From Robiginitalea sediminis (GTDB lineage: Bacteria > Bacteroidota > Bacteroidia > Flavobacteriales > Flavobacteriaceae): DNA of 64,000 bases. Positions 12,894-35,087 of the stretch are shown here, one piece after another; position 1 is the stretch's first letter; each line of letters starts with the position of its first letter. The notes beneath the pieces were generated by a model. It made no database searches. It saw nothing but the letters and a program-made list of their open reading frames with translations, and had not been told where the DNA came from. The position numbers and the translations under genes are program-made. The DNA is taken from assembly GCF_002198115.1 (NCBI RefSeq), contig NZ_NGNR01000002.1, positions 186,001-250,000 on the forward strand, read 5' to 3'.

Positions 12894-12894
12894 G

Positions 12895-16455: not shown

Positions 16456-18549
16456 ATGAGGCGCATTTCCTTTTTGTTTCCTGTTTTTATTCTCGTGTTG
16501 CTGATGGGGTCCGGTTGTGCGGAAGTCCCCCGGCGAAACCTTTTGGGGGAGGAAACCAGTCCGTACCTGCTGCAGCATGCAGAAAACCCCGTGCACTGGC
16601 AACCCTGGAGCGATGCCATCTGGGAAATGGCCCGGAAAGAAGATAAACTGGTGCTTATCAGTATCGGGTATTCCTCCTGCCACTGGTGCCATGTGATGGA
16701 GGAAGAGACCTTTGAGGACGATTCGGTAGCCCAGCTTATGAACCAGCGCTTTATCAACGTAAAAGTAGACCGGGAGGAACGCCCGGACGTGGACCAGGTC
16801 TATATGACGGCCGTCCAGTTGATGACCGGCAGGGGCGGCTGGCCCTTGAATGTCCTGGTGCTCCCGGATGGGAAACCCCTGTACGGGGGTACCTACCACA
16901 CCCGCGAGCAATGGATGGGTGTCCTTGCCGAAATGGACCGGCTCTACCGGGAAGACCCGGCCCGTGCCCGGGAGTATGCCGACAAGGTAGCCCAGGGGGT
17001 AGCTCAGACTAATAGTCTGGTACCCGCGGCAGACACCCGTCCCGTGCGCCCGGCGGAAGTGACTACAGCGGTATTGGGCTGGAAGGCCAGCTGGGACCCG
17101 GAGTGGGGGGGCAACACCGGGCAGCAGAAGTTTATGATGCCCGCCAACATGAATTTTCTCCTGGATTACGCCTTTTTAAGTGCGGATTCCCTGGCCCTTA
17201 CCCATGTCCGGAACACCCTGGACAGGATGGCTCGAGGCGGGGTGTTCGACCAGGTAGGGGGCGGTTTTTTCCGCTACAGCACAGACCCTGAGTGGCGCAT
17301 CCCGCATTTTGAAAAGATGCTGTATGACAATGCCCAGCTCCTGGGCCTGTATTCCAGGGCGTTTAAGTGGTTTCCCTCGGGGGAATACCGGGAAACGGCC
17401 GGGCGAATTTTTGAGTTCCTTCAACGCGAAATGAAAAGTCCGGATGGGGGGTACTACGCTGCCATGGATGCAGACAGCGATGGGGAAGAAGGAGCGTTTT
17501 ATACCTGGGAGGAGCAGGAATTAAAGACCCTCCTGGGGGAGGCCTTTCCCGACTTTGCCACCTATTACGAAATCCGTCCCGAGACGGCCTGGGAAGGCAA
17601 TTACGTCCCGTTCCGCCCCGTATCGGACAGTGTCTATGTTTCCAGCGGTGGTGGGACCCCGGAAGCGCTGAAAGAGCAGCAAGCCGGGTGGAGGAAGGTA
17701 TTGATGGAAGCCCGCGGGCAGCGGCAGCGCCCGGGGATCGACAACAAGGTGCTCACCTCCTGGAACGCCTTGCTCATTTCCGGCCTGGCAGAGGCGTATG
17801 AAGCCTTTGGGGAAGTCCGGTACCTGGATGCAGGGGAGGAGCTTTTTGCCTATTTACTCCAGCACCAGTTTCAGGGGGAAGCCCTCCGGCACAGCTCCGT
17901 TTCCGGGGTGGCAGGAGGCGAGGGTTTCCTGGAGGATTACGCCTTCCTGGCCGAGGCTGCCATGCGCCTGTATGAGGTTAGCGGAAAACCCGGGTATCTG
18001 GAAAATGCTGAGCGGCTGGTACTCCAGGCAGAGGAGCGATTTGCTTCGGAAGAATCGAGGTTGTTGCGCTATACGGAAACCACCGACCTGATTTCCCCCA
18101 TCCTAAAAACAGACGATGGGGTTATTCCCTCTGCGAATGCAGTTATGGCCGGGCTGTATCTGAAACTGGGTCATTTCTATTACAAGCCGGCCTATCTGGA
18201 ACGGAGCCGCACTATGGTGTTGGCCCTCAGGGAACGCTTTGGCCAGGCCCCCCAGAATTACAGCGCCTGGGGGCGGTTAATGCTGGCACATAGCTGGCCG
18301 TATTTCGAAGTGGCCGTTGCCGGGCCACAAGCCAGGGAGCTACGCATGGCACTGGGGAAGGAATTCCTGCCGAATGCCTTGCTGGTCTTTACAACGAGCC
18401 CCAGCGACCTCCCGCTCTATGCCAACCGGCACGAAGAGGAGGCTACCTATTTCTATGTCTGCCGCGACCACAGTTGCCGCTTCCCGGTGGAAACCCCACA
18501 GGAAGCTATGGCGCAGATTCAGGAGGACTTGCTGGCAGAAAGACCCTAA
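16456..18549 (+). CDS. DUF255 thioredoxin-fold / six-hairpin protein (YyaL/SPATA20-like), lipoprotein
   Basis: A 697-aa protein combining an N-terminal thioredoxin-like DUF255 domain (about residues 28-185) with a C-terminal alpha/alpha-barrel like N-acylglucosamine epimerases and glycosidases. The motif SSCHWCHVM near 74-82 supplies the CxxC. Unlike most relatives it begins with a lipoprotein signal ([21 protein letters not shown], Cys21), so it should act outside the inner membrane. The frame is open from 16357, overlapping the esterase gene; the signal peptide and the -7 box decide for ATG 16456. The function of the family is not settled. It shares a 4-bp convergent overlap with the FG-GAP gene. 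Confidence 0.88.
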
Positions 18550-21500
18550 CCTTCGCTGTCCACCGTGCGGGTAACGGCCCCGGTCTGGTCGAAGAATTCC
18601 ACGGACTTCATTTCCGGGGTGCGCAACAGGTACCTTTCGGACTGGCTGTTAAAGCCGCTGCCCCAGTACCATTCCCGAAGTTCCGCGCGCCCGTCTGCAT
18701 AATGCACCCGCGCCCCGACCTCGTTAGGGGCCACTTTGAGGGTAGCAGTTGCCGGGGTCCCATAGGCCCGGATGCGGTCGTTGTTTTGGGAGGCCACCCA
18801 GAGCAGGGTGCCATCGGCTGCAGGCAGGCCCACCAGGGCCTTGGCATCCCCAGGCAGGTAAAACCCGCTTTCGGTGTTGTTTAAGGCTTTGAAATGGCCT
18901 TTCCCGTCTCCCAGGAGCATGAGGCCCATAAAGGCGTCTGCACGGCCCTGCTGAACCTCCATACCGTAGTCGTTGCCGGCCAGTAGGAGGTCCGGGAAGG
19001 TATCCCCGTTAAAATCTGCGGAAACAATCCCGTAGACGGGGGCGATTTGGGCATTCACCGGGAGGGCATGGCGCCGGAACGTTCCATTGCCGAGGTTTTC
19101 TACCCAACTGGTTTCCTGGGTATTGAATTCCAGGACGGTAGCGTCATCCAACAAGCCATCCGGGAACATTTCCGGGAGGGTGGAGGCCCCGAATTCCCCA
19201 AAGGAATTGAAGCGTTTGCGGATGGCAGAAAACTGCTTGACCACGTCCTGCCAGGGGTGGTAGAGGTATTCCCGTTTTACCCCGGCGCTGTCGCGCAGGT
19301 AATAGGAAATAAGCGGATCTATCATCCCGTTGTCGTCCAGGTCCTTGGCATAGACCCGTACCGGTTCGGATTGGGTACCCCGGAAATAAATATTGGTCCC
19401 GGAATTCCCGGCGATATAGTCCATGTCCCCGTCCTGGTCCAGGTCTGCTGCGGCCAGGCTGTTCCACCAGCCCTTGTCTTCCTGCAGGCCTGTGGTTGCG
19501 GTAATCTCGCGCAAGCTGCCCTGGCGGTTTTCAAAGAAGCGCAAGGGGCTCCATTCCCCGGCCAGGATGAGGTCCGGCCAGTGGTCCCCGTTGAAATCGG
19601 TCCATAGGGCATCGCTTATCAGCCCTGCGAATTCCAGGGCGGGTTCCACTTGAACCGTGACATCGGTGAAGGTAACCTTGCCGTTGGCGCTGTCGTTGCG
19701 CAAGAGGTAACTGCGATCTGCCATGGGGTAGGCAAAGGGCAGTACCCGGCTACCCACAAAGAGGTCCAGATCGCCGTCCTGGTCGTAATCGGCCGCTTTT
19801 ACCACAGAGGTATTGGCGCGGATATCCGGCAGGGCAGTGGTCGCCCGGCTGAATTCCCCGCTGCCATCGTTGAGCAGTAGGATATCCCTGTAGCGCTCAT
19901 CCCCAGCTTCGTACTGCCCGGAACCGCGGGCGAGGTACAGGTCCGGGTCCCCGTCCCCGTCTGCGTCGAACAGGAGGGCTGCCGTATCTTCTTCCTCCAA
20001 CTCCGGATGGGACTTATAGTTCACCTCAGCGGCCTTAAAGGAGCCGTCTTCTCCCTGGATGAGCCAGGTCTGGGTAAAGTTCCGGGTACCCGGGATAAAT
20101 AAGTCCGTGCGTCCGTCGGCATTGACATCGGCCGCTGCCAGGGCTGGGCCATACTGGGAGAACTTGTGGGGCAGGGTGCGCTGGAAGTTAAAATCGATAA
20201 AGTCGATATCGCGGATGCGGATATCCAGCCCACGGGTGGAATCCTGGGCAGTGAGCAGTGCCAGGCTTCCCGCTTTTCGGGTCGGGGAGGGGAGGGCCTC
20301 GTTATACCGGAAGACCAATTCCTGCCGTGCCTCCGGTGCAACGGCCCAGGCTTCCCGCCCGTCGGCCCAGCGCACATGTACCGAGTCTACCGAAGCCTGG
20401 CCTAACCCGAAATGCAATACGCCTTCGGGTTTTGAGAGGTATCCCCGACCAGAGAGTACCCTGAGTTTCTGGATGGCACCATCACGGTAAACCGCTACTT
20501 CGCTGCCATACCCTGCCGGGTTGGCTTTCGGCCCTTCGAGTCGGACCCGGAGGTATCCGTTCTGGGGCTGGAGTTCATTCTGCCTGTTCTCCATGAGCAG
20601 GGCCTTTTCGTTCAGGTTGTTGATGACCAGGTCCAGGTCTCCGTCTTTGTCGAGGTCCCCATAGGCCGCCCCGTTGGAAAATGTCCCAAAATTGAGGCCC
20701 CAGGCCGCTGTGGCATCTTCGAAACGCAACCCGCCCATGTTGCGGAAGGCGAAATTCGGGATCTTGATTTCCGGGATGGCCTCAATGAGTTTTTCCTTGG
20801 TGACGAGCCGGCTTGCCGTAACCCGGAAATCCCCAAAATCCCTGTCGGTTACATCTTTTGGAAAACCATTGGTGATGAGCAGGTCCTGCAGGCCGTCGTT
20901 GTCGAAATCGGCAAAGAGGGGCGCCCAGCTCCAGTCAGTTTCCTGTACGCCGGCAAACATCCCGGCCTCGGAAAACACCGGCAACCCTGTTTCGGGGTCT
21001 GTCCCGTTGGCAATCTGCAGGGTATTGCGGGCGTACTGGTATTCGTACCCGTAGGAGCGCGTAAAGATTTCCTTGTTGTAGCTGCTGGGGCCCTGAAACA
21101 GCTTTTTACGCTTGTTGTAATAGGGTTGCATTTCCGTGGTGAACAGGTCCAGCTCCCCGTCGTTGTTAACGTCGGCCAGGTCGCTGCCCATGGAGGAAAG
21201 GCTAAAGTGTTTGAAGATGTCCCCGGCCCGGTTAGTAAAGGTCCCGTCCTGGTTGTTGATATACACCAGGTCATTGCTGAAAAAATCGTTGGCGACGTAA
21301 ATGTCCATCCAACCATCCTTGTTGAAGTCGTGGATCAGCGTACTGTGGCTGTATCCATGGTAGCGGATTCCCGCACTGTCTGACACATTGGTAAAGCGGG
21401 GGTGTCCCAGGGCTTCGTCCCAGCGGTTCTCATACAGGCGGTCGCGGCTCAGGGAGCTCCCGTCGTCCTGGTTGGGCCGGAATTCCGCCGGGTTGATGCC

Positions 21501-22103
21501 TTCAATGCGGTTCACGCCAATGAAGACGTCCAGGTCCCCGTCATTGTCGTAATCGAAGAATTGGGCATGGGAGGAGTACGTATCGTCGTCCAGCCCATAG
21601 GCTGCAGCTTGTTCACTGAAGGTGGGTACCCCGTTGGCCGTATTGCCCTGGTTGATGTACAACAGGTTGCGGCGGCTGAGGCTGTCGCGGTAAAACGTGT
21701 TGCAGATATAGATATCCAGGCGGCCGTCCAGGTTCAGGTCCACAAGGCTTACCCCTGAGGACCACACCAGGGAATCCGGTTTGCCTATCCCCGAAGCAGT
21801 AGAAACGTCTTCGAATGCCAGTTTGCCCCTATTGAGGTAGAGGGCGTTATTGGCCTGGTTGCCGGTAAAAAAGATGTCGTCGAGACCATCTCCGTTTACA
21901 TCGCCCAGGGCTACTCCGCTCCCGTTGTAAACAAACTCATTGTCGAGGATGTTGATGGAGTCGTTTTCCGTCAGGCGGTTTTCGAAATGAATCCCACTGT
22001 ACTCCGGAGACACAGGGCGAAACAGGTGAGGGGTTTCCGGCTCACTGCAAGCGTGCATGCTTATCAGTAAAAGGGCGGCAAAAGCCCCATATAATACTCT
22101 CAT
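18546..22103 (-). CDS. FG-GAP/VCBS repeat protein with UnbV/ASPIC domain, lipoprotein
   Basis: Surface-exposed or periplasmic lipoprotein of 1185 aa (signal [19 protein letters not shown], Cys19). It holds two sets of beta-propeller FG-GAP repeats with calcium-loop motifs such as [12 protein letters not shown] (near 70), [24 protein letters not shown] and, in the C-half, [12 protein letters not shown]. Between them, around residues 525-590, is an ASPIC/UnbV domain ([18 protein letters not shown] ... HFGLG). This CRTAC1-like architecture is common near SusCD pairs in Bacteroidota, where it is thought to bind glycans or aid adhesion; the role is unproven. It lies 111 bp downstream of the susD terminator, in the same orientation, so it may be transcribed separately. 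Confidence 0.88.
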
Positions 22104-22214: not shown

Positions 22215-23969
22215 TTACCATCCCGGGTTCTGAGTAAGAACGTCAGATCCCTGAATATCGATCTGGGCCTGAGGGATAGGCTGGTATTCGTGCTTGCCTG
22301 CCTGGAAGCTGGCGCCTCCGAACTTGGTCACCAGGTACTGGCTTTCATAGTTCAGGTAGCGGTTCAGCTCATCGGCTGCGATCCCCCAGCGTACCAGGTC
22401 GAAGAAGCGGTGTCCTTCGCCGGAAAGCTCGAGTTTACGCTCGAAACGAACGATATCGCGGGCAGTGGCTTGGTCGGAGAAATCCGAAGCAGCGTACTCG
22501 CTGATTACGTAGTTGGCAGCATTGGCATTGGGATCGCTGTACTCCTTAACCCAGAATTGAGCATTGGCGGCACGGGCACGAACCTGGTTAACCAGGGCAC
22601 GTGCGGCCTCCAGGTTACCCAGTTCCACTTCGGCTTCGGCAGCCATCAGCAGCACATCGGCATAGCGGATAATGGTGTAGTTCATCAATGCATAGCCACG
22701 GGTCCAGGAGCTGGCATCTGTCAGGCTTCCTTCCTGAGAACGATAGTAGATGTACTTCTTAGGAGAGTACGGACCAGCGTAGGGGAAGCTACGGATCCAG
22801 GCAGAGCCCGGGTGCTCGATCCAATCCAGGTAAGGGATTCCCTTACGCCCGATAGACCAGTCGATACGCGGATCCAGCGGACCGGCATCTTCGGTAAAGG
22901 TGCCTTCATCCTGCCCGTCGGTAAAGACATGGCGGTAGACGTTGGCCACTTCGTTGGCCGGGTCGCTGAAAGAACCATCGAGCAGGGGCAAACCAGCAGC
23001 CGTGGTACGGAAGTGGTTGGCCAGGTCGATACTCGGCTGGAAGAATCCGCAGCAGTTACCGGGACCGTCAGGACCGGTGTTGTACGGGTAGTTCAGGTCG
23101 TCGAAATAGTTGGCGTTCTGAGTGCTACCGGTGTTGTTGGCGGATTCCACATCGAATACGGACTCTGCATGGTTATCGAACTCGGCATTGAAAATGTTGG
23201 CGTAGTTGTCCAGCAAGGCGTATTTCTCACCCAGGGGGGTTACCCCGTTGGCGATCACATCGTCGAACCAGGTTTTGGCCTGGGAGAATTTGCCCTGGTA
23301 CAGCATGGCCTTACCCATAAGGGCTGCAGCCGCCCAGCGGTTAACCCGACCGGCAGAGGTGGTCTCCGGCAGGTTGTCGTAGGCGTATTGAAGGTCTGCT
23401 TCGATAAGCGCCCAGGCATCACCATTATTGGGAACCAGGATCACTTCTTCCGGCGGGACGGTTTCGTCGAATACCGGAATGTTGTTGAAGTGCTTCTTCA
23501 AATCGAAGTAGAAGTGGGCACGAAGCATACGGGCCTCCCCGGAAATGCGGGCATAGTCCGAAGCGGTGAGCTGGTCCTGGATCAGGTTGGCCGTAGCCAC
23601 CACCTTGTTGGCACGGGAAACCCCTTCGAAACGACCTCTCCAGAGGTTGTTAAGGTCACCTTGTGTGGCATCGTGCGTAAACCGCTGTACCGGGTTGATA
23701 GAGGAATAATCCCCTGCATCTGTACCCTTGTTGGCGTCTCCGCCGAGGATAGCACCGGTTACCCAGTGGTTAGGACCTTCGAAACGGTTGCCGAAAACCC
23801 CGTTCAGGGCAGCGTACGTTCCAATTAACAGGCCTTCAACCCCGTCCTTGGTCTGCAGCTGAGCGTCTCCCAGGGAGTTGGCCGGCGGCACTTCCAGGAA
23901 TTCGTCGCTACAGGCCCCGACAAGCAGGAGACCCGCAGTAAGTAGCGCAAAAAATCTGTTTGTTTTCAT
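22215..23969 (-). CDS. SusD/RagB-family glycan-binding lipoprotein
   Basis: Outer-membrane surface lipoprotein of 584 aa that caps the SusC channel and binds the substrate. Signal MKTNRFFALLTAGLLLVGAC has lipobox Cys20; then SDEFLEVPPANSLG is a typical SusD opening. Tetratricopeptide-like helices fill the N-half, and the C-terminus has the family ending WGIAADELNRYL ... YQPIPQAQIDI. The frame extends to 24017, but the extra 16 residues precede the signal peptide, so ATG 23969 is used. It follows susC with a 58-bp gap and ends at a strong terminator. The substrate cannot be read from sequence. Confidence 0.95.
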   Translation of the reverse strand: MKTNRFFALLTAGLLLVGACSDEFLEVPPANSLGDAQLQTKDGVEGLLIGTYAALNGVFGNRFEGPNHWVTGAILGGDANKGTDAGDYSSINPVQRFTHDATQGDLNNLWRGRFEGVSRANKVVATANLIQDQLTASDYARISGEARMLRAHFYFDLKKHFNNIPVFDETVPPEEVILVPNNGDAWALIEADLQYAYDNLPETTSAGRVNRWAAAALMGKAMLYQGKFSQAKTWFDDVIANGVTPLGEKYALLDNYANIFNAEFDNHAESVFDVESANNTGSTQNANYFDDLNYPYNTGPDGPGNCCGFFQPSIDLANHFRTTAAGLPLLDGSFSDPANEVANVYRHVFTDGQDEGTFTEDAGPLDPRIDWSIGRKGIPYLDWIEHPGSAWIRSFPYAGPYSPKKYIYYRSQEGSLTDASSWTRGYALMNYTIIRYADVLLMAAEAEVELGNLEAARALVNQVRARAANAQFWVKEYSDPNANAANYVISEYAASDFSDQATARDIVRFERKLELSGEGHRFFDLVRWGIAADELNRYLNYESQYLVTKFGGASFQAGKHEYQPIPQAQIDIQGSDVLTQNPGW

Positions 23970-24027
23970 AACTTTTTTTTCAAATATATTCAAAAAATTT
24001 GTTCTCATCTCACTCATGTTTAAAGAA

Positions 24028-27000
24028 TTACAGGCGTAGATTCACATTAAACAGGTAAGAAGGAGTAACAGGGTAGTTACCTACATCAACCCCGAAACGG
24101 GTATCGGCATCCCCACCAACCACGGGATCAAGTCCGCTATAGTTGGTGATTGTCCAGATATTGTTAGCGGAAATTCCGATGGAGAAACGCTTTACACCCA
24201 GTGATTCGAGGATATTATCATCGAAGTTGTACATCAGAGCCAAACGCTGCAGACGGATGTAGTCTCCATCTTCCACATACCAGCTGTTGGAAGCACCACT
24301 TGTAGATAAGTTGGATTCGCTTTCCCAGATAGGAGCGGCTGCGTTGTTGCCCAGTTCAGGTGTCCAGGAGCGAAGTGCAGCAACACCCTTGGCAGAACCT
24401 TCGAAAGTACCGAAGAAATCGCGGAACCATTTCCCCTGGTTGAAGATTTCAACTCCACTTACCCAGTTCCAGAAGGTTTCCAGGGTAAGGTTCTTGTAGT
24501 TCAGGGTAATGGTGGCACCACCACTGTACTCCGGTACCGGATCTCCCAGGTACGTACGGTCGTCCGGGGTGATCACCCCGTCACCGTTCACGTCGCGATA
24601 GCGGAAACGCCCTACACCGGCACCATCCTGGGCGGGTGAGCTGTCCACTTCTGCCTGAGAATTGAAGTAACCGATTACGTCATAACCGAAGAAGGAAGAC
24701 AGCGGCCTGCCCAATTGGTTTCGAGTGGGGGAGATGCCACGGAAAGTTCCTCCATCCAGGAACTCAATTCCATCGGCAAACTTAACAACCTCGTTTTTCA
24801 AGAAAGAGTTGTTAAGAGTCACATTGAAACTCAGATCTTCGGTGATGTTTCCACGACCTACGATCTGGAAGTCGACCCCTTTGTTGAGCATGGCTCCTAC
24901 GTTACGCGAGGGAGCAGATGCGAAGTTTCCGGTTACACCGGCCAGTGGCACAGTGAAAAGCAGGTCTTCGGTATCCTTCTTCCACCAGTCGAGGATGATG
25001 TCCACATGCCCATCGAGGATGGTGGCATCGAAACCGATATTGAGGGTGGTTGAGGTTTCCCACTTTGCATCGGGGTTTCCGATACGGGTGGTGGCAAAAC
25101 CTTCGTTGGCACCGCTGTTCTGGCCGTCGATCGGGTAAATGGTATTCCCGATATTAATACCAGCCAGTGAGAACTGGTTGGCCGGATCCACGTTGTTGGA
25201 GTTACCCATTTGCCCCCATCCACCACGGATTTTCAGGTCGGTGAAGATGTTCTGGTTTTCCATGAAAGACTCGGCAATAACCCGCCAGGCACCGGAAACC
25301 GCAGGGAAGGTTCCGTAGCGGTTGTTGGAACCGAAAACAGAGGAACCGTCGCGCCGGATAACCCCGGTCAGATAGTATTTCTCATCCCAGTTGTAGTCCA
25401 GTTTTCCAAAGACGGAGTTGAAGTTCACCCCTTTGCGAATGAAGCTCTGTACTACGGGGGATCCAACGGTTTGCAGGTTTACGAAATCCAGATCGGTAGA
25501 GAAGGGGTTGATCCCCGATCCCTGAATCCGGCGTCCTCGGGAAGCGGTGGTCGGCGTGCTGGCACCTTCTATAGCTTCATAACCTACGAAAGCTTTGATT
25601 CCGTGCTTTCCGAAGATTTTCTCGTAGGTAGCCGTATTGGTCCAGATCCACTGGAAGCCGTACTCCTGGCCTTCGTTAAAGCTAAAGGATGCCTGCGGCT
25701 CGGAATCCCCAAGGTAGCGGTAGTTGTAATCCAGGTTGGTGAAATTGTAGTAGTTACCACCTATGCTAGTGCGGATAACTAAACCTTCAATGGGCTTCAC
25801 CAAAGCGTACAGGTTACCGAAACCGCTTACGGAGTAGGCCTGGTCATTCCCGCGGTCCTGTACCAGGCGGCGTACCGGGTTCCGTGGGTTGTTGAAGCCC
25901 GCGGCACGGGTACTGGCGTAGCTGCCGAACTCATCGAATACCGGGATAATGGTAGGCATCCGATATGCGGAAAGTACTTCGGATTCGTCATCGGCAATAC
26001 CGAGACCACCGTTTCCACCAGTTTGACCGCGCACGGAGTTATAAGTAAACTGCAAATTCTCACCCAGGGAAAGCCAGGGGGTGACGTCCCATTCGGAATT
26101 GAAGCGGGCGGTGTAACGATCTTGTTCGTTCTCCAGCAGAATTCCATCGAGAGATTGCAGGCTAAGGCCAACGAAGAAGCGTGAATTTTCCGTTCCCCCG
26201 TTAAAGCCAAGGCTGGCGCGCACTGCAGGAGCAAGGCGTGTAATCTCTTTATACCAGTTGGTTCCGCGCAGGTTGGGGCGGATCAGGAATACGTTTTCAG
26301 GGTTAGCCTCATAATTGGCACGGATCTGCGCCAGGTTGATGTCAGACTCATTAACCCCGTTCTGCCCGTCCGCATGAAGATAGTCCGGGAAGGTAGGGGT
26401 GGCGTTGGAGCCATACTGAGGGTGGGTGTACTGCGGGGCAGTTCCGTTGGCTGCGGCATTGTTTTCATACCCGATATGCGTCCATTCTGCCATTTGCTGA
26501 GGATTCAGCATTTTGGGAGAACCATTTACGTTCGGGTCGGTAACCCCACTCTGGATGTCGACAGATATTTCGGTCTTCTTGTTGCGACGGCCCTGCTTGG
26601 TGGTATAAACGATTACCCCGTTGGCAGCACGTGCCCCGTAGATAGAAGCAGCGGCAGCATCTTTAAGAACCGTAGTAGTCTCGATATCGTCCGGGTTCAG
26701 GAAGGAGATGTCGTTGATCGGCACCCCGTCTACCACATACAGCGGCTCGTTACCTCCGAAGGCCCCGAAACCGCGGACGCGGATTTGACTGGCAGTACCA
26801 GGCTGTCCGTTGGTTACTACGTTTACACCGGCAACCCTACCGGCCAGCTGCTGTTCAACGTTACCGGAAGGGATGGCGGCCAGTTCCTCGGCCTTCACGA
26901 TAGAAACGGCTGCGGTGGTTTCCCGCTTGGTTTCCGTGGTATATCCCGTTACGATCACTTCGTCCAGTGCCTGGGAGTCTTCGGCCATGGTAATGGAAAC

Positions 27001-27351
27001 CGAAGAGCGTCCGTTAATGGCAACCGACTGTGTCACGTAACCCAGGTAGCTCACGACAAGTGTAGCATTCGGGTCGGCCTCGATGGTAAAATTACCGTCG
27101 AAATCCGTTTGGGTACCTGTGGTGGTACCCTGCACGATGACGTTGGCGCCGGGAAGCGGAACCCCATAGGAATCCACTACAGTACCGGAAACGACATTTT
27201 GCAGTGCGTTTTCTCCGGTCGTTTCATTGGGCATTTCGACTGCTGCATGTGCCGGCAGCAAACCGAAACACAGAAACATCATTATGAATCCGGAGAAGAG
27301 TCGTAAAAACGATTTCAGTCCCATCGGATTCCAGTCAGCGTTTCGAATCAT
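24028..27351 (-). CDS. SusC/RagA-family TonB-dependent outer-membrane transporter
   Basis: Outer-membrane importer of 1107 aa working with the SusD protein and powered by TonB-ExbBD. After a signal peptide (to about residue 37, LLPAHA) comes a carboxypeptidase-regulatory-like domain (VSGTVVDSYGVPLPGANV, about 53-130), the TonB-box region DEVIVTGY near 138-145, a plug domain (PLYVVDGVPINDI) and a 22-strand barrel ending NVNLRL, with aromatic/hydrophobic C-terminus expected for BAM recognition in this phylum. A second in-frame Met (residue 10) is possible as start. The 250 bp upstream hold a LacI-type palindrome. Substrate: probably an oligosaccharide processed by the neighbouring enzymes. Confidence 0.95.
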   Translation of the reverse strand: MIRNADWNPMGLKSFLRLFSGFIMMFLCFGLLPAHAAVEMPNETTGENALQNVVSGTVVDSYGVPLPGANVIVQGTTTGTQTDFDGNFTIEADPNATLVVSYLGYVTQSVAINGRSSVSITMAEDSQALDEVIVTGYTTETKRETTAAVSIVKAEELAAIPSGNVEQQLAGRVAGVNVVTNGQPGTASQIRVRGFGAFGGNEPLYVVDGVPINDISFLNPDDIETTTVLKDAAAASIYGARAANGVIVYTTKQGRRNKKTEISVDIQSGVTDPNVNGSPKMLNPQQMAEWTHIGYENNAAANGTAPQYTHPQYGSNATPTFPDYLHADGQNGVNESDINLAQIRANYEANPENVFLIRPNLRGTNWYKEITRLAPAVRASLGFNGGTENSRFFVGLSLQSLDGILLENEQDRYTARFNSEWDVTPWLSLGENLQFTYNSVRGQTGGNGGLGIADDESEVLSAYRMPTIIPVFDEFGSYASTRAAGFNNPRNPVRRLVQDRGNDQAYSVSGFGNLYALVKPIEGLVIRTSIGGNYYNFTNLDYNYRYLGDSEPQASFSFNEGQEYGFQWIWTNTATYEKIFGKHGIKAFVGYEAIEGASTPTTASRGRRIQGSGINPFSTDLDFVNLQTVGSPVVQSFIRKGVNFNSVFGKLDYNWDEKYYLTGVIRRDGSSVFGSNNRYGTFPAVSGAWRVIAESFMENQNIFTDLKIRGGWGQMGNSNNVDPANQFSLAGINIGNTIYPIDGQNSGANEGFATTRIGNPDAKWETSTTLNIGFDATILDGHVDIILDWWKKDTEDLLFTVPLAGVTGNFASAPSRNVGAMLNKGVDFQIVGRGNITEDLSFNVTLNNSFLKNEVVKFADGIEFLDGGTFRGISPTRNQLGRPLSSFFGYDVIGYFNSQAEVDSSPAQDGAGVGRFRYRDVNGDGVITPDDRTYLGDPVPEYSGGATITLNYKNLTLETFWNWVSGVEIFNQGKWFRDFFGTFEGSAKGVAALRSWTPELGNNAAAPIWESESNLSTSGASNSWYVEDGDYIRLQRLALMYNFDDNILESLGVKRFSIGISANNIWTITNYSGLDPVVGGDADTRFGVDVGNYPVTPSYLFNVNLRL

Positions 27352-27426: not shown

Positions 27427-27601
27427 CTGATAACGTTAACAAAACCCAAAAATCGTGTTAATAATACTAAAAATAGGGGGAATATAAAGTAGCCTCTACC
27501 AAATTTTTATCAAAAATCTTTCAATCTGTTAAAAATTTTAGAGGAATATTAGCAATCCATAAATTAGGCGTATTTATCGCTAACCAACCAAAATCACACC
27601 T

Positions 27602-29320
27602 ATGCAGATAAAGGAAAACGCCACGGTCTACGATGCCATTATTGTAGGATCGGGAGCCGGGGGCGGAATGGCTACCAAAATACTGGCAGATGCCGGCCTC
27701 AAAGTAGCCGTGGTTGAAGCGGGGCCGTTTTTCGACCCCAAGGACCCCAAACAGCAGACCCAGATGAAATGGCCGTATGAGTCCCCGCGCCGGGGCGCAG
27801 CCACAACCCGGGACTTCGGCGAATTCGATGCCGCTTATGGCGGATGGGAGATAGAAGGGGAACCTTATACCCATAAGGATGGCACTAAATTCGACTGGTT
27901 CCGTTCGCACATGCTGGGGGGACGTACCAACCACTGGGGAAGGATTTCCCTCCGTTTCGGCCCCAAGGATTTCAAGCATAAGGATGTGGATGGCCTGGGG
28001 GAAAACTGGCCCATTAGCTATGAGGACATCAAACCCTATTACGACAAGGTAGACAAACTCATTGGCGTGTTCGGCACAAACGAAGGGCTGCCCAATGACC
28101 CGGACGGGTTTTTCCTCCCCCCGCCCAAGCCCAGGCTCCACGAGCTGTACTATATCAAAGGGGCGCGGAAGACAGGCATCCCGGTGATTCCCTCCCGGAT
28201 GTCCATGCTCACCAAGAAAATCAACAATGAGCGCGGGGTTTGCTTCTATTGCGGGCAATGCAGCCGCGCCTGCCAGGTCTATGCGGATTTTTCGGCCGGG
28301 ACCTGCCTGATCTTCCCGGCCCAGAAGGGCAGGGGGCAGGTGGACCTGTTTACCAACTGCATGGTGCGGGAAGTAACCACGGACGAAAATGGCAAGGCTA
28401 CCGGGGTCTCCTATATTAATAAGGAAGATCGCAAGGAATATTCCCTGAAGGGAAGGGTAGTGGTGCTGGCGGCCTCGGCCTGCAGTACCGCCCGCATCCT
28501 GCTGAACTCCAAGAGCAAACAACACCCCAACGGGCTGGGCAATGGCAGCGACCTGGTCGGGAAATACCTGCACGATTCCACCGGCAGTAGCCGGGCTGGG
28601 TTTATCCCGGACCTGATGAACCGGGAAATCTACAACGAAGACGGGGTTGGCGGCATGCACGTATACTCCCCCTGGTGGGGCGACAACAAAAACCTGGATT
28701 TCCCCCGGGGCTACCACATTGAGGTGTGGGGTGGGATGGGGATGCCCAATTACGGTTTCGGCTTCAACCCGAACGATTTCAACAGGTTTTTCGGCCTGCC
28801 CACCGGCGGCTACGGCGAACAGCTACGCAAGGACGTCAAGAAGTACTACGGTTCGGTGGTCGGTTTCGGCGGCCGGGGCGAGGCGATTGCCCGCAAGGAC
28901 AATTACTGCGAAATAGACCCCACCACGGTGGACGAATGGGGGATTCCAGTATTGCGCTTCCACTACAAATGGTCCGATTACGAACGCAAACAGGCCCGCC
29001 ACATGCAGGCCACCTTCGAGGAACTCATCCACAATATGGGGGGAGAGGTCCTGGGCGATACCCCATCGGCCGAACAGGATTACGGCTTACTGGCCCCGGG
29101 CCGTATTATCCACGAGGTAGGGACCACCCGGATGGGGGACGACCCCAAAACCTCGGTAACCAACCGCTACCAGCAGCTGCATGAGGCAGACAACGTCTTT
29201 ATTACGGATGCAGGACCCTTTGTGTCCCAGGCGGACAAGAACTGTACCTGGACCATCCTGGCGCTCTCCTGGAGGGCTTCGGAGTATATCGTAGAACAAC
29301 TCAAGCAACAAAATATCTGA
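27602..29320 (+). CDS. GMC-family oxidoreductase, large catalytic subunit
   Basis: FAD-dependent dehydrogenase of 572 aa. The dinucleotide-binding motif VGSGAGGGMATKILADAG is at about residues 14-31, followed by VVEAG; the C-terminal active-site region includes HEVGTTRMG near 500 and DAGPFVSQADKNCTW near 538. A cysteine-rich segment CFYCGQCSRACQVYA near 217-231 is unusual for simple GMC oxidases and is seen in multi-subunit sugar dehydrogenases. No signal peptide is present; co-export with the Tat-signal small subunit encoded 1 bp downstream is the likely route to the periplasm. Related complexes oxidise C3-hydroxyls of sugars or gluconate; the substrate is inferred from context. Confidence 0.88.
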   Translation: MQIKENATVYDAIIVGSGAGGGMATKILADAGLKVAVVEAGPFFDPKDPKQQTQMKWPYESPRRGAATTRDFGEFDAAYGGWEIEGEPYTHKDGTKFDWFRSHMLGGRTNHWGRISLRFGPKDFKHKDVDGLGENWPISYEDIKPYYDKVDKLIGVFGTNEGLPNDPDGFFLPPPKPRLHELYYIKGARKTGIPVIPSRMSMLTKKINNERGVCFYCGQCSRACQVYADFSAGTCLIFPAQKGRGQVDLFTNCMVREVTTDENGKATGVSYINKEDRKEYSLKGRVVVLAASACSTARILLNSKSKQHPNGLGNGSDLVGKYLHDSTGSSRAGFIPDLMNREIYNEDGVGGMHVYSPWWGDNKNLDFPRGYHIEVWGGMGMPNYGFGFNPNDFNRFFGLPTGGYGEQLRKDVKKYYGSVVGFGGRGEAIARKDNYCEIDPTTVDEWGIPVLRFHYKWSDYERKQARHMQATFEELIHNMGGEVLGDTPSAEQDYGLLAPGRIIHEVGTTRMGDDPKTSVTNRYQQLHEADNVFITDAGPFVSQADKNCTWTILALSWRASEYIVEQLKQQNI

Positions 29321-29321
29321 T

Positions 29322-30035
29322 ATGGACAGAAGACAAAGCCTGAAATCCCTCGCCTTGGGTACCGCCGCTGCAGGCCTCGCCCTCCACGGCTGCAAAATGG
29401 AGGATCAGGAACTACAGGAGGCTGTTTCTGCGGGAGCCGAACACTATTTCGGACGGACCCCGGAGGAATTGGAGCAAATTGCAAAACTCCATGCCGAAAC
29501 CTTCTTTAACCCCCATGAAATGGAAACCCTTTCGGTACTGGCCGAATTGATCCTCCCACCGGTGGAGCAATATGGCGGGCCGCTGGAGGCCGGTGTGCCG
29601 GACTTCATGGAATTCATGGCCAAGGACATCCCCGAACTGCAGGTGACCCTCCGAGGCGGGCTGATGTGGCTGGACCACAAGAGCAATACCGAGTTCCAGA
29701 CGGAGTTTAAAAGCGCCCAGCAAGCCCAGCAAAAGGAAATCCTGGATGCTATCGCCTTCTACGACCCGGAGGTCCCCTTGCAGGAGCAGCCACTGGAAAT
29801 CCAGTTCTTCAGCCTGGTGCGCAACCTGACCGTTTCCGGGTATTATACATCCAAGCTTGGCATAGAGGAATTGGGTTACAAGGGGAATACCCCGAATATC
29901 TGGGATGGGGTGCCCCAACACGTACTGGACAAACACGGCCTGGCCTATGAGGAGGAGTGGCTGGCCAAATGTGTGGACCAGAGTAAGCGCGGGGTGATTG
30001 CCGAATGGGACGAAAACGGGAACCTATTAACGTAA
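29322..30035 (+). CDS. Gluconate 2-dehydrogenase subunit 3 family protein (Tat signal)
   Basis: Small subunit, 237 aa, of a GMC-type sugar dehydrogenase. The N-terminus MDRRQSLKSLALGTAAAGLALHGC is a twin-arginine signal, with a cysteine at its end that may also be a lipobox. The body (HEMETLSVLAELILPP ... GVPDFMEFM) matches the family that escorts and activates the flavin subunit. The gene begins 1 bp after the large-subunit stop and overlaps the region before the TIM-barrel gene, so the three form one operon. No cytochrome c subunit gene is adjacent, so the electron acceptor is unknown. Confidence 0.87.
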   Translation: MDRRQSLKSLALGTAAAGLALHGCKMEDQELQEAVSAGAEHYFGRTPEELEQIAKLHAETFFNPHEMETLSVLAELILPPVEQYGGPLEAGVPDFMEFMAKDIPELQVTLRGGLMWLDHKSNTEFQTEFKSAQQAQQKEILDAIAFYDPEVPLQEQPLEIQFFSLVRNLTVSGYYTSKLGIEELGYKGNTPNIWDGVPQHVLDKHGLAYEEEWLAKCVDQSKRGVIAEWDENGNLLT

Positions 30036-30046
30036 AAACCAGTGAC

Positions 30047-30871
30047 ATGAGAATCAGATCATGGATTGCCGCCTTGGCTGTCTCCGCCTTTTTTGCCCCT
30101 CAGGGGCTTGACGCACAAGAATTTGGCATTCAGTTGTACAGCCTGCGCAACCAGTTTGAAAAGGATGTGGAAGGCAGCCTGAAGCAAATCCGGGACTGGG
30201 GGATCACCTACATCGAAGGCGGGGGAACCTATGGGTATTCCCAGGAGGAATTCCTGGGGTTGCTTGGAAAATATCGCCTGAAAACCATCAGCGTGGGGGC
30301 GTCCTACGAGGAATTGCGGGATAATCCGGAGTCTCTGGTCGAAAAAGCCCGCGCATTTGGGGCGGAGTACGTGATGTGCGCCTGGATACCGCACCAGAAC
30401 GAATTCGACCTCACGGAGGCATTAGCGGCCATTGACGTCTTCAATAAAGCCGGGAAACTCCTGAAGGAAGCGGGTTTAACCCTGGCCTACCACCCCCATG
30501 GGTACGAATTCAGCGCGCATGAAGAGGGCACGCTGTTCGACATTATGGCCAGGAACGCCAGGGACTTTGCCTTTGAAATGGATGTGTACTGGGTATTTCA
30601 CGGCGGGGCCGACCCCCTGGAACTCCTGAACCGTTATCCGGACAAGTTTGTGCTGTATCACCTGAAGGATATGGCCCACGGCGTGAAAGGGAATACCTCC
30701 GGGCACGAAGATGTGGAAACCAATGTAGTGCTCGGTACGGGGCAGATTGATATTGCAGCCCTGGTGAAACGGGGCGCCGAGCTGGGAATCCGGTATATGT
30801 TCATAGAGGATGAATCCAGCAGTGTGGTGGAACAGGTGCCCCAGAGTCTGGAATTCCTGCGGGGGCTCTAG
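30047..30871 (+). CDS. Exported TIM-barrel sugar isomerase/epimerase-like protein
   Basis: Predicted periplasmic protein of 274 aa of the xylose-isomerase-like AP-endonuclease-2 fold. The signal peptide (WIAALAVSAFFAPQGLDAQ) ends near residue 22. Barrel landmarks: FGIQLYSLRNQF, YHPHGYEF (possible metal His), FEMDVYWVFHGG and a C-terminal MFIEDESSS. The frame opens at 30005, but ATG 30047 starts the signal peptide and lies 11 bp after the small-subunit stop. Some members in Bacteroidota act on 3-keto-glycosides as lyases or isomerases, which would fit its place behind a sugar dehydrogenase. Activity here is inferred. Stops of this gene and the GH130-like gene overlap. Confidence 0.82.
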   Translation: MRIRSWIAALAVSAFFAPQGLDAQEFGIQLYSLRNQFEKDVEGSLKQIRDWGITYIEGGGTYGYSQEEFLGLLGKYRLKTISVGASYEELRDNPESLVEKARAFGAEYVMCAWIPHQNEFDLTEALAAIDVFNKAGKLLKEAGLTLAYHPHGYEFSAHEEGTLFDIMARNARDFAFEMDVYWVFHGGADPLELLNRYPDKFVLYHLKDMAHGVKGNTSGHEDVETNVVLGTGQIDIAALVKRGAELGIRYMFIEDESSSVVEQVPQSLEFLRGL

Positions 30872-31956
30872 CCCCCCGGTTTTATTGCCACCCCTACCAT
30901 GGAGTCTGCGGTTCCGTAATACAGGAACCAGTTCTTCCTGAAATACACCAGTCCCTGGATAAAGGTTGTCCCCGCCTGGTACTGCCCGCTTACCTCATGG
31001 GGCAGGCTGGGGCAGATAAAAGGCGCTTCCAGGCGCCGGACAAATTCAGTTGGGTCGTCTTTGCTGAATAATGCCTGGCCCCCGCAGTAAGTGCCCTCAG
31101 GGGTTTCAGGCCCCGCACCCTCCCCGGAAAGATTTTTGCCGTTATACAACAACAGAATGCCTTCTTCGGTATACAAAGCCGGAGGCCCGGGTTCCGTGAG
31201 GTGGCTGTCGAAGGTTCCCGGGGTGGGAACAAAGGGCTTGATCAGTTCCCCGGAGCCGTTTGTTACCGGGGTCCAGTCGCGGCCATCTTCCGAAACGGCC
31301 ACATTCACAAAAAGCTCCCCCCAGTACATGTAGTAAGCACCCTTGATTTTTTTGGCGACCAGCCGTCCGTCCTTAAGCTCGGTTACCACCGATCCCGATT
31401 TGCTCCAAACATCCCGGAAAGCCCCGCCATGGGCTGTTTCAAAGACCGGACCGTGTTTGGTCCAGTGGACCAGGTCTGTGGAAGTGGCGCTGGACAAACG
31501 GGCTGTTTCCCGGTTCCAGCTGGTATAGAGCATCAGGTAGGTGCCGTCTTCCAATTCGGTTACCCTGGGGTCCTCAACCCCGCCCGGGAAATCCCATTTG
31601 CTGAAGGGCCCGGGTTCGGGATACAGCACCGGATCCTTATGCCGGGTAAAGTGCAGCCCGTCCGTACTCCAGGCCAGCCCGATACGGCTGGTACGCTCGC
31701 CTAGGCGGGCGTCGCGGTCATCCTCCGCCCGGAACAGGAGAAAAACCGTGTCGTTACGGACCACGGCACCCGGGTTAAAAACATCGGCCTGCTGCCAGCG
31801 AACCGGCCTGTTTTGCATGGGGCAATCGAAAATATAGGTGGAATCGGGCCCGAGGATGGGCTGCCCCTCCGGTTTCTCGAATCCAAGCATCCAGGGCTCC
31901 TGGGCGAGACCCGCAATCGGGAAGAACAATATCAGCAGTAAAATGGAGCGCATCAT
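30868..31956 (-). CDS. GH130-like five-bladed propeller glycosidase/phosphorylase, exported
   Basis: Secreted protein of 362 aa (signal MMRSILLLILFFPIAGLAQ). The pattern VFNPGAVV ... LLFRAEDDRD ... GLAWSTDGLHF ... GGVEDPRVTE (about residues 60-150) is that of GH130 beta-mannoside phosphorylases/hydrolases, where the Asp of VEDPR region takes part in catalysis. Later blades carry YYMYWGE and LLLYNGKN. Being periplasmic, it may act as a hydrolase, since phosphorylases are normally cytoplasmic; the specificity cannot be told. It is divergent from the VanX-like gene and is the only clear glycoside-active enzyme in the SusCD island. Confidence 0.83.
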   Translation of the reverse strand: MMRSILLLILFFPIAGLAQEPWMLGFEKPEGQPILGPDSTYIFDCPMQNRPVRWQQADVFNPGAVVRNDTVFLLFRAEDDRDARLGERTSRIGLAWSTDGLHFTRHKDPVLYPEPGPFSKWDFPGGVEDPRVTELEDGTYLMLYTSWNRETARLSSATSTDLVHWTKHGPVFETAHGGAFRDVWSKSGSVVTELKDGRLVAKKIKGAYYMYWGELFVNVAVSEDGRDWTPVTNGSGELIKPFVPTPGTFDSHLTEPGPPALYTEEGILLLYNGKNLSGEGAGPETPEGTYCGGQALFSKDDPTEFVRRLEAPFICPSLPHEVSGQYQAGTTFIQGLVYFRKNWFLYYGTADSMVGVAIKPGG

Positions 31957-33719: not shown

Positions 33720-35087
33720 TTAAAGGGTTCCGGCAGGGTGCTCATACCCGCTCCGGTAAGGCCGTTGTAGCCTTCCTGTAGCTTCCGGATCTCCTTCGAT
33801 GATGCGCTTTGCGGGATTATAGCTAAGAGGCCTGCCCAGGTCCATGGCCACGTTGGCCAGGATACAGCTGGCCGACGAAATATGGCCCTGTTCGATGTCC
33901 GCAAATGGGCGGTTGCCGTTTTCAATGGCCGCAAGGAAATCGATCATATGCCGGCGGGTCGCCGGAACGGCGTGCAACTCGATATTGGCCTCATTGACGT
34001 CTTCCGGATACTTTTCACGCTCGTAAATCACGTCCCCGTGAATGGGGTTGCTGCCGTCTGCCGGGGTGAAGTCGTACTGCATCACGCTGCCCGCCAAGGT
34101 CCCTTTTTCCCCATAAATCTTAAAGGCCCAGGGGTAATCGGGGTCTGCCGGGGCGCCCCAGCTGCGGTGCTGCCAGTGGCAGCTGAAATCCGGGAATTCG
34201 AAAACAGCCGATTGGGTGTCCGAAATATTGGATTTCCCATCCTTCTGCACATAGATTCCGCCGCTGGAGCTGATCCGCGTGGGCCATCCCAGATCCAGCA
34301 GCCACCGGACGGTGTCTAACATGTGCACGCACATATCCCCCATAATGCCATTGCCATACTCCATAAAGGTGCGCCACCAGCGGATATGGGGCAGCCCGTC
34401 ATAGGGCCTGAGCGGCGCCGGCCCGGTCCACATCTGGTAATCCAGATGGTCCGGGACCTCCTGCAACGGTGGGTTTCCGTTAGCCCGCATATGGTAGTAA
34501 CAGCACATCTCCACATGGCCTACCTTGCCCAACAGGCCTGCATCCACAATCCGGCGTTTGGCTTCCTGCAAATGCGGGGTACTGCGCCTTTGGGTCCCGA
34601 TCTGCACCGTCCTGCCATGCCGCCTTGCGGCCGCCAGGATGGCCTCGCCTTCGAGCACGTCCACACTAATGGGTTTCTGCAGATAAACATGACAACCCTT
34701 CCGGATGGCTTCAATAGCAATCAGGGCGTGCCAGTGATCCGGGGTGGCAATCAGTACGATGTCCATTTCGGTTTCTGCCAGCATTTTGCGATAATCCCGG
34801 AAAAGCCTCGGTTTGGCGGAGGGCTCCCGTTCCAGTACCATGGCGGCGGCTTCGTCCAGGAGCTTCTGGTCTGCGTCGCATAGGGCTGCCACCTCCACGG
34901 GGGCCACCTGCATCAGGCGCCAGAGGTCCATTTTTCCGTACCACCCGGTACCGATAAGCCCGACCTTCCAGGGTTTGCCCCGGTAGATGAGGTCCATGCC
35001 ATAGGAGCCGAAACTGCTCAGCAGGGCCAGGGCGCCTGCTCCTTTCATAAAGCGCCTTCTGTTGATGTTGAAATGCGGGTGTTCCAT
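33720..35087 (-). CDS. Gfo/Idh/MocA-family oxidoreductase with Tat signal
   Basis: NAD(P)-dependent sugar oxidoreductase of 455 aa. NRRRFMKGAGALALLSSFG at residues 9-27 is a twin-arginine signal, so the enzyme is exported with its cofactor bound. The Rossmann fingerprint VGLIGTGWYG is near 43-52; LQKPISVD near 135 gives the family catalytic Lys (KP motif); GDMCVHMLDTVRWL near 255 matches the conserved His-containing helix. Periplasmic relatives keep a tightly bound nicotinamide and interconvert keto- and hydroxy-sugars. This suits the dehydrogenase/isomerase genes upstream. It has a -7-like box 22 nt before ATG 35087 and converges on the esterase gene. Confidence 0.88.
   Translation of the reverse strand: MEHPHFNINRRRFMKGAGALALLSSFGSYGMDLIYRGKPWKVGLIGTGWYGKMDLWRLMQVAPVEVAALCDADQKLLDEAAAMVLEREPSAKPRLFRDYRKMLAETEMDIVLIATPDHWHALIAIEAIRKGCHVYLQKPISVDVLEGEAILAAARRHGRTVQIGTQRRSTPHLQEAKRRIVDAGLLGKVGHVEMCCYYHMRANGNPPLQEVPDHLDYQMWTGPAPLRPYDGLPHIRWWRTFMEYGNGIMGDMCVHMLDTVRWLLDLGWPTRISSSGGIYVQKDGKSNISDTQSAVFEFPDFSCHWQHRSWGAPADPDYPWAFKIYGEKGTLAGSVMQYDFTPADGSNPIHGDVIYEREKYPEDVNEANIELHAVPATRRHMIDFLAAIENGNRPFADIEQGHISSASCILANVAMDLGRPLSYNPAKRIIEGDPEATGRLQRPYRSGYEHPAGTL

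Follow-up and report, generated by a model that had tools for sequence, protein, structure and literature searches.

The stretch of DNA analysed here, 64,000 nucleotides of Robiginitalea sediminis contig NZ_NGNR01000002.1 (positions 186,001 to 250,000; hereafter the window), carries on its + strand three closely packed genes that probably form an exported system for oxidising glycosides and then cleaving them by elimination. They encode a GMC-family flavoprotein with flavin adenine dinucleotide (FAD) as cofactor, a small subunit of the Gluconate_2-dh3 family bearing a twin-arginine translocation (Tat) signal, and a xylose-isomerase-like triosephosphate isomerase (TIM) barrel. Homology and genetic context point to C3 as the position oxidised and to elimination as the way in which the bond is broken. 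A first-pass annotation of the same DNA had suggested such an oxidise-then-eliminate triad; the residues of the TIM barrel, the relatives of the GMC protein and the 3-keto-sugar families among the operon partners support it as an inference. The features of the locus are as follows.

27602..29320, + strand: GMC-family FAD dehydrogenase, predicted sugar dehydrogenase, 572 amino acids (open reading frame (ORF), Pfam, PDB alignment)
28241..28273, + strand: Cys loop CFYCGQCSRAC, residues 214-224 of the GMC protein (alignment with the glucose dehydrogenase BcGDH)
29322..30035, + strand: Gluconate_2-dh3 small subunit, predicted Tat lipoprotein, 237 amino acids (ORF, Pfam)
29322..29393, + strand: Tat signal and lipobox of the small subunit, MDRRQSLKSLALGTAAAGLALHGC (read directly; conserved in orthologues)
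30047..30871, + strand: predicted exported xylose-isomerase-like TIM barrel; ORF 30005-30871, 288 amino acids (ORF, Pfam, signal, AlphaFold2 (AF2) model)
30860..30878, + strand: terminator-like hairpin at the operon end (consensus match only)

The three proteins all score above curated Pfam cut-offs: the GMC protein matches GMC_oxred_C (66.6 bits) and GMC_oxred_N (42.9 bits), the small subunit Gluconate_2-dh3 (105.4 bits) and the TIM barrel AP_endonuc_2 (45.0 bits). The gap between the first two genes is a single base. The small-subunit and TIM-barrel ORFs overlap only when the first ATG (30005) is used for the latter; the ATG at 30047, which removes the overlap and yields an ordinary-looking signal peptide, MRIRSWIAALAVSAFFAPQGLDAQ (judged by eye), is the likely start. 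ORFs and Pfam agree with the tight operon described in the first-pass annotation. For comparison, 81 orthologous loci were assembled, namely the window, 40 loci from a search of the family, plasmid locus L188 and 39 of the 40 from a search of the phylum; they were hand-picked to span the identity range among the matches listed, and some end at contig edges. Loci L231 and L081, at which the GMC gene escaped our simple gene caller, were excluded from the neighbourhood counts. The grouping of the genes exceeds chance: the small-subunit gene lies within three genes of the GMC gene at 73 of the 81 loci, and the TIM-barrel gene at 15 of the 41 loci of the family set.

The TIM barrel resembles 3-keto-glycoside beta-eliminases

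Among proteins of the PDB, the TIM barrel matches 8tcd, 8tcs and 8tct (1.7e-19 to 3.9e-18) and 8bvk (2.5e-15). The mature protein gives the same matches, and a profile search gives 6e-37 to 5.7e-36. According to their titles, 8tcd and 8tcr are the 3-keto-beta-glucopyranoside-1,2-lyase AL1, 8tct is BT1, and 8bvk is the O-glycoside beta-eliminase AtOGE. The AF2 model (predicted local distance difference test score (pLDDT) 94.4) has a xylose-isomerase-like fold, and its structural Z scores are 26.6 for 3obe, 25.7 for AL1, 24.7 for BT1 and 23.1 for AtOGE, with the 3-keto-glucopyranoside-1,2-lyases and AtOGE all within the top 13 matches.

Section 8 of PMC10628242 gives H132, D163, H189 and E233 as the metal ligands of AtOGE and H134 as its catalytic residue. 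These align, in this order, with H126, D156, H182, E231 and H128 of the TIM barrel (numbered from the Q at 30116), and the HxH, D, H and E of this site are invariant in 21 of 21 aligned TIM proteins, that of the window included. The active site thus does not point to a different reaction, and the nearest proteins by sequence, AL1, BT1 and AtOGE, also stand high in the structural ranking, in keeping with the earlier idea of a barrel acting on 3-keto-glycosides. We predict that the protein is a 3-keto-glycoside beta-eliminase or a 3-keto-glycal hydratase: its fold and residues suit an elimination adjacent to a C3 ketone, and they leave room for hydration of a glycal too.

Hydration is the core of an alternative that we consider rather improbable, in which oxidation does occur at C3, the TIM barrel of the window hydrates a 3-keto-glycal or epimerises or isomerises a keto-sugar, and a DUF1080 protein or a second TIM barrel encoded elsewhere cuts the bond. 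Section 7 of PMC10628242 reports AtHYD, an isomerase-like neighbour of AtOGE, as a probable hydratase. Loci L037, L052 and L075 have tandem TIM barrels, as expected for an eliminase/hydratase pair, and candidates for the cut are at hand, since the 3.3 Mb genome has nine 3keto-disac_hyd matches and 12 more AP_endonuc_2 matches outside the operon (13 in all, 11 over the cut-off), one of them about 4 kb upstream of the window (L079). Against this alternative count the conservation of the catalytic His of AtOGE (H134) in the TIM barrel and the single TIM barrel of the window operon.

The protein about 4 kb upstream (L079:15661-16539) is a TIM barrel predicted to be a lipoprotein; its score against our own TIM profile is 117 bits, and it has a DGKFYG stretch as in the lyase AL1. 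At L037, L052 and L075 the two tandem barrels follow the small-subunit gene and both carry the HxH motif; one may be an eliminase and the other a hydratase.

The flavoprotein is related to sugar dehydrogenases and has a four-Cys loop

The GMC protein has no visible signal peptide. Its best PDB matches are BcGDH (1.9e-38) and fructose dehydrogenase (1e-33), followed, for its C-terminal part, by 7qf8 (GMC oxidoreductase family protein, 5.8e-15), which we take to be a glycoside 3-oxidase, and by pyranose oxidases and related sugar oxidases. Placement in the cholesterol- or alcohol-oxidase branch alone, which the first-pass annotation had named among the findings that would speak against its proposal, was rejected because the best matches are sugar dehydrogenases. 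The available text of PMC6719666 assigns His105 of BcGDH to the FAD linkage and His476/Asn519 to catalysis. H111, H504 and N547 of the GMC protein align with these three residues and are kept in 81/81 orthologues in a re-alignment with 16 other GMC proteins, only one of which has the FAD-linking His. Judged from this alignment, H111 is likely linked to FAD, and H504 and N547 are likely the catalytic pair.

The Cys loop, CFYCGQCSRACQVYA, starts at residue 214. In BcGDH, Cys212, Cys218 and Cys222 are the ligands of a [3Fe-4S] cluster, and Cys213 is no ligand and forms a disulfide to the small subunit (PMC6719666). C214, C220 and C224 of the GMC protein align with the three ligands, and an extra cysteine, C217, aligns with N215. 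All four cysteines of the resulting CxxCxxCxxxC motif are present in 81/81 orthologues. At the position of C217 the 16 other GMC proteins have Arg (14/16) or a gap (2/16); three GMC paralogues in the same genome, 31-35% identical, are all of the three-Cys form, and a Pseudoalteromonas GMC protein (45% identical) has the FAD-linking His and an Ala in place of the fourth Cys. The suggestion in the first-pass annotation that the Cys-rich insert could hold a metal or iron-sulfur (Fe-S) site fits the three aligned ligands, but an Fe-S site was to be expected because the BcGDH loop is a direct precedent, and the fourth Cys alone is new.

A [4Fe-4S] cluster bound by CxxCxxCxxxC is plausible. We hold it to be an even matter whether, instead, C217 is not a ligand and the loop binds a [3Fe-4S] cluster of the ordinary kind, like that of BcGDH, with C217 structural or in a disulfide; this would be compatible with the oxidise-and-eliminate reading. 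It is favoured by the fact that the cysteines of such a motif in classic two-cluster ferredoxins serve two clusters. It is also favoured by the neighbouring BcGDH cysteine, C213, which goes to the small-subunit disulfide rather than to the cluster (PMC6719666). C217, however, matches N215 of BcGDH and not C213, and the retention of the whole set of four in every orthologue counts against a non-ligand role. Moreover, apart from the lipobox position, the small-subunit alignments have no column in which a Cys is fully or almost fully conserved, which leaves C217 without an obvious disulfide partner; an inter-subunit disulfide was therefore rejected.

The small subunit is a predicted Tat-exported carrier

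An RR motif is present in 74/74 small subunits, and a simple pattern finds a lipobox in 64 of them; among the other 10, some have a Cys that the pattern missed and others have none. Because both motifs are conserved, we read the small subunit as a Tat-exported and mostly lipid-anchored protein, predicted to act as a "hitchhiker" carrier of the signal-less GMC protein. In BcGDH the small subunit is likewise of the Tat type and has been proposed to carry the flavoprotein out (PMC6719666).

The AF2 model of the small subunit has a pLDDT of 88.1. In the VIA comparison, with 994 re-aligned chains, chain B of fructose dehydrogenase takes the first two places (Z 5.8, with 107 residues aligned at a root-mean-square deviation of 5.8, and Z 5.2; the next match has 3.5). 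With Foldseek by itself the model had no match at E <= 0.001, the sequence matched nothing in the PDB up to E 1, and the only match of a profile to the PDB was an antibody (E 0.69). The VIA result is weak alone, but the matched chains are the small partners of the GMC protein's own PDB relative; homology to the small subunits of BcGDH and fructose dehydrogenase is thus only hinted at by the model.

No cytochrome gene adjoins the triad

The first-pass annotation had seen no cytochrome partner nearby, and a check of the 47 window genes found by a simple caller (ORFs of at least 80 amino acids) agrees: two of them encode a CxxCH motif, and neither is a cytochrome partner of the triad. The two candidates rejected are a DUF255/thioredoxin-type protein (CHWCH; Thioredox_DsbH) encoded four genes upstream and a 971-amino-acid protein encoded 25 genes downstream. 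L207 is the only one of the 81 orthologous loci whose operon includes a gene for a mono-haem cytochrome c. The R. sediminis genome has 14 Cytochrom_C matches. One of them (C11:47.8 kb), inside a 1133-amino-acid frame, shares 47% identity with the cytochrome of L207 over a stretch of 79 residues. According to the available text of PMC9915066, a glucoside 3-dehydrogenase passes its electrons to a mono-haem cytochrome of Rhizobium radiobacter. For the GMC complex, the likeliest acceptor would be a cytochrome encoded at an unlinked locus. Outside the 81-locus set, a locus of Arenibacter hampyeongensis (L147) has, four and six genes downstream of the GMC gene and on the same strand, genes for two short proteins that each contain a single CxxCH; by this motif they are possible cytochrome c acceptors.

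A four-Cys clade in Bacteroidota

The closest named GMC protein, from R. aestuariiviva, is 95% identical over 572 residues. In a sample of 249 genomes of the family, the identity of the matches listed drops from 65% to 36% with nothing between, and 74 of these matches, the window's own included, belong to the four-Cys clade and come from 71 genomes. The gap lies between 53% and 40% in a sample of 395 genomes of the phylum, where the clade occurs in 98 genomes among the matches listed, again with that of the window included; both genome totals (71/249 and 98/395) are our counts from the match listings. Across the samples, members of the clade are 53-89% identical to the GMC protein and the next relatives at most 40%.

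In a tree of 58 rows calculated without the Cys-loop columns, the 41 four-Cys rows fall on one side of a branch with an SH-aLRT value of 96, adjoining the Pseudoalteromonas protein. The exact place of that protein is unsure, because this tree, made by a quick method, has long branches, including L226_0, L190 and L189. On these sequence comparisons, the GMC protein is a member of a distinct, Bacteroidota-wide four-Cys clade. Given its presence in 71/249 family and 98/395 phylum genomes, a large set of bacteria may therefore use proteins of this clade to oxidise sugars outside the cytoplasm and feed the electrons into respiration.

Neighbours of the four-Cys GMC genes

We used our own profiles for the TIM barrel, DUF1080 and Gfo/Idh proteins, which are biased to the 81 loci because they were built from that set. 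Within three genes of the GMC gene they find Gfo/Idh at 16 loci and a TIM barrel or DUF1080 at 29/81. All three families are concentrated close to the GMC gene: at a distance of one to three genes versus six or more, the TIM barrel accounts for 19/483 versus 1/328 genes, DUF1080 for 14/483 versus 0/328, and Gfo/Idh for 17/483 versus 4/328.

A Pfam tally is free of the bias of these profiles. It covers 159 same-strand, closely spaced neighbours from 59/81 loci (three members of more than 1000 amino acids were left out) and the best 25 families of each scan. Among the matches listed, the leaders are AP_endonuc_2 (26), 3keto-disac_hyd (13), GFO_IDH_MocA (10) and Sulfatase (9), together with GFO_IDH_MocA_C3 (9) and with SGSH_C (9) and Phosphodiest (9), which are presumably the same sulfatases. 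By comparison, the whole 3.3 Mb genome of R. sediminis has 13 AP_endonuc_2 and nine 3keto-disac_hyd matches. The predicted operon partners across the phylum are thus led by families of the 3-keto-sugar pathway. From these counts it follows that the core of the system is the flavoprotein plus the lipoprotein, and that, at loci with a linked partner, the protein likely to cleave the bond is a TIM barrel or a DUF1080 protein. A further 80 named loci, which overlap the 81-locus set and were counted separately, gave a called GMC gene in 79/80, the four Cys in 79/79 and a TIM barrel within three genes in 30/79.

The whole pathway is present at two loci. On the Pseudoalteromonas plasmid the order is Gfo/Idh, isomerase, MFS, DUF1080, GMC (45% identity), small subunit and isomerase; at L207 it is four-Cys GMC, small subunit, Gfo/Idh, TIM barrel, cytochrome c and DUF1080, the last identified by our own profile. 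Nine plasmid loci, hand-chosen from at least 40 matches, were inspected. In Croceicoccus, Novosphingobium, Xanthomonas, Catenovulum and Pantoea, plasmid-borne genes for more distant GMC proteins likewise have isomerase-like TIM barrels beside them, and some of these five loci add Gfo/Idh, DUF1080 or DUF6379. On the Pantoea piersonii plasmid (L262, 5986-12268), the gene for a GMC protein without the Cys loop has Gfo/Idh, DUF6379 and xylose isomerase genes in its vicinity, and this combination presumably resembles C-glycoside deglycosidase clusters.

Seven Flavobacteriaceae loci (L037, L040, L045, L046, L048, L052 and L075) have a sulfatase-cluster gene directly 3' of the TIM-barrel gene; at L037, the one scanned alone, it is of the SGSH_C type. 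These neighbours hint at sulfated glycans as the substrate.

The R. sediminis genome itself has a second, larger 3-keto-sugar-like region (C1:747103-784000; L077, L254), which contains genes for a Tat-signal TIM barrel, a small subunit, a three-Cys GMC protein and two MFS-like transporters (judged by eye), as well as for Gfo/Idh, a second three-Cys GMC protein, a TIM barrel and DUF1080.

Points against the proposed reading

Several observations weigh against a C3 oxidation followed by elimination. The closest solved relatives of the GMC protein are glucose and fructose dehydrogenases, which are not known to oxidise C3, and none of the residues examined fixes C3 regiochemistry. The fold of the TIM barrel does not fix its reaction, because two of its top three structural matches, 3obe and 3l23, are structural-genomics entries with no reaction stated, and because Art22 (Z 25.2) and IolE proteins (Z 23.4-24.1) score above AtOGE; the related AtHYD, moreover, appears to hydrate and not to eliminate (PMC10628242, section 7). 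By our own profiles, a TIM barrel is near the GMC gene at just 16/81 loci and DUF1080 at 13/81, and 45/81 loci have none of TIM barrel, DUF1080 and Gfo/Idh within three genes, from which it appears that the flavoprotein and lipoprotein pair can do without a TIM barrel. The relatedness of the loci also inflates the context counts. Among individual loci with more distant GMC proteins, that of an Agrobacterium plasmid shows none of the three partners and that of a Spirosoma plasmid has DUF1080 only, and the stretch read of a four-Cys Hymenobacter locus has no TIM barrel and no DUF1080, carrying GH92 and SusC/D-type genes instead.

Some of these points would suit another explanation, in which the pair is a broad periplasmic enzyme of the gluconate 2-dehydrogenase/FADGDH kind that oxidises C1, C2 or C5 for energy, and an ordinary isomerase, the TIM barrel, is encoded next to it by coincidence. 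The small subunit does fall in Pfam Gluconate_2-dh3, glucose and fructose dehydrogenases are the nearest solved structures, and 65/81 loci lack a TIM barrel within three genes by our own profile. We nevertheless regard this explanation as quite unlikely: 3-keto-sugar families head the operon partners, the TIM barrel retains all five AtOGE residues, and no cytochrome subunit gene adjoins the pair, in contrast to gluconate 2-dehydrogenase.

Proposed mechanism

In the oxidise-and-eliminate reading, which we prefer, the GMC protein would fold in the cytoplasm and be exported by means of the small subunit's Tat signal; the lipid of that subunit would hold it at the membrane. Its FAD, probably His-linked, would then accept a hydride from one hydroxyl group of the sugar, most likely the one at C3. 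By way of the Fe-S cluster in the Cys loop, the electrons would go on to an acceptor whose gene lies elsewhere, presumably the quinone pool or a c-type cytochrome with a single haem. Once secreted, the TIM barrel would use its metal and HxH motif to take the C2 proton of the 3-keto product and expel the leaving group at C1, giving a 2-hydroxy-3-keto-glycal and a free aglycone or sugar. Alternatively, the TIM barrel might add water to the 2-hydroxy-3-keto-glycal.

A wider and tentative proposal, possible without being probable, is that the Bacteroidota-wide GMC clade with a [4Fe-4S] cluster is a lipid-anchored, Tat-exported sugar 3-dehydrogenase without a dedicated cytochrome, often joined in Flavobacteriaceae to a secreted beta-eliminase. 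If this is true, many Flavobacteriaceae would oxidise glycosides and cut them by elimination outside the cytoplasm.

Other features of the window

The hairpin at the end of the operon (30860-30878, + strand) combines a G+C-rich stem with a T-run; evidence for a terminator is weak, because the region holds 11 terminator-like sites against a shuffled mean of 5.3. Upstream of the triad, and divergent from it, lie SusC/SusD genes (22215-27351), beside which a 1185-amino-acid FG-GAP/ASPIC protein is encoded (18546-22103, - strand). Antisense ORFs over the GMC gene (27521-28717) were, in our judgement, not counted as genes. A GH130-like protein (30868-31956, - strand), converging on the triad, scores 461.8 bits against the BT3780 beta-1,2-mannosidase model, whose cut-off is 550, and a Tat-signal Gfo/Idh/MocA protein (33720-35087, - strand) scores 147.5 bits, below the 750 cut-off of BT_2158_fam (glycoside 3-dehydrogenase). 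The window further encodes a Sde182-type cellulose-binding/nucleoside-hydrolase-like protein (11325-13001, - strand).

Comparison with known systems

Gluconate 2-dehydrogenase consists of GMC, Gluconate_2-dh3 and cytochrome c subunits; the window matches it in part, with the first two and no adjacent cytochrome c gene. BcGDH (6a2u) and the fructose dehydrogenases of Gluconobacter (7w2j, 8jej, 9jqa) share with the GMC protein the fold and the His/Asn pair, and BcGDH also the FAD-linking His, the three Fe-S cysteines and a small Tat-signal subunit, encoded adjacently in the window. The GMC protein differs from both in its extra invariant Cys, in its different partner enzymes and in the lack of a gene for a multihaem cytochrome c subunit near the triad.

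The lactose 3-dehydrogenase LacABC has a cytochrome c as its third component, whereas the window operon has neither a third component nor a cytochrome gene; this comparison is with LacABC as described. The available text of PMC9007349 presents LacABC of Caulobacter crescentus as a periplasmic three-part enzyme with three required components, which also occurs in Bacteroidetes and whose DUF1080 neighbour is proposed to cleave 3-keto-glycosides.

AL1 of Alistipes and BT1 of Bacteroides thetaiotaomicron, the closest characterised proteins by sequence, belong to the same TIM family as the barrel of the window. The 3-keto-glycoside route of gut Bacteroides uses a dehydrogenase of the Gfo/Idh/MocA kind (NCBIfam BT_2158_fam), whereas that of the window is a GMC complex; compared with the Bacteroides pathway of the BT2156-BT2159 type, the window operon lacks a dehydrogenase from either the BT_2158 or the BT_2159 family.

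In the Agrobacterium tumefaciens GlycDH/AtOGE/AtHYD operon, oxidation at C3 by a flavoenzyme is followed by a Mn2+-dependent TIM-barrel beta-eliminase (PMC10628242; 8bvk). The TIM barrel of the window has all five active-site residues of AtOGE and a Z score of 23.1 to it. It differs in sequence (23% identity in the structural alignment) and in having its own signal peptide; furthermore, the window flavoprotein pairs with a predicted Tat lipoprotein, and the operon lacks Gfo/Idh.

Flavoenzyme 3-dehydrogenases beside cleaving enzymes are therefore already known (PMC9007349 and PMC10628242, available text). Among the matches listed in a literature search, which left subscription papers mostly outside its coverage, no title dealt with a [4Fe-4S] GMC enzyme or with this gene set. 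What the window adds to the known systems is the four-Cys clade, the absent cytochrome gene and the exported TIM-barrel partner. Oxidation plus elimination is a recent addition to the biology of glycoside cleavage, and three points each lend themselves to a clear experiment: the loop with its four Cys, the absence of a cytochrome gene and the exchange of TIM barrel and DUF1080 partners.

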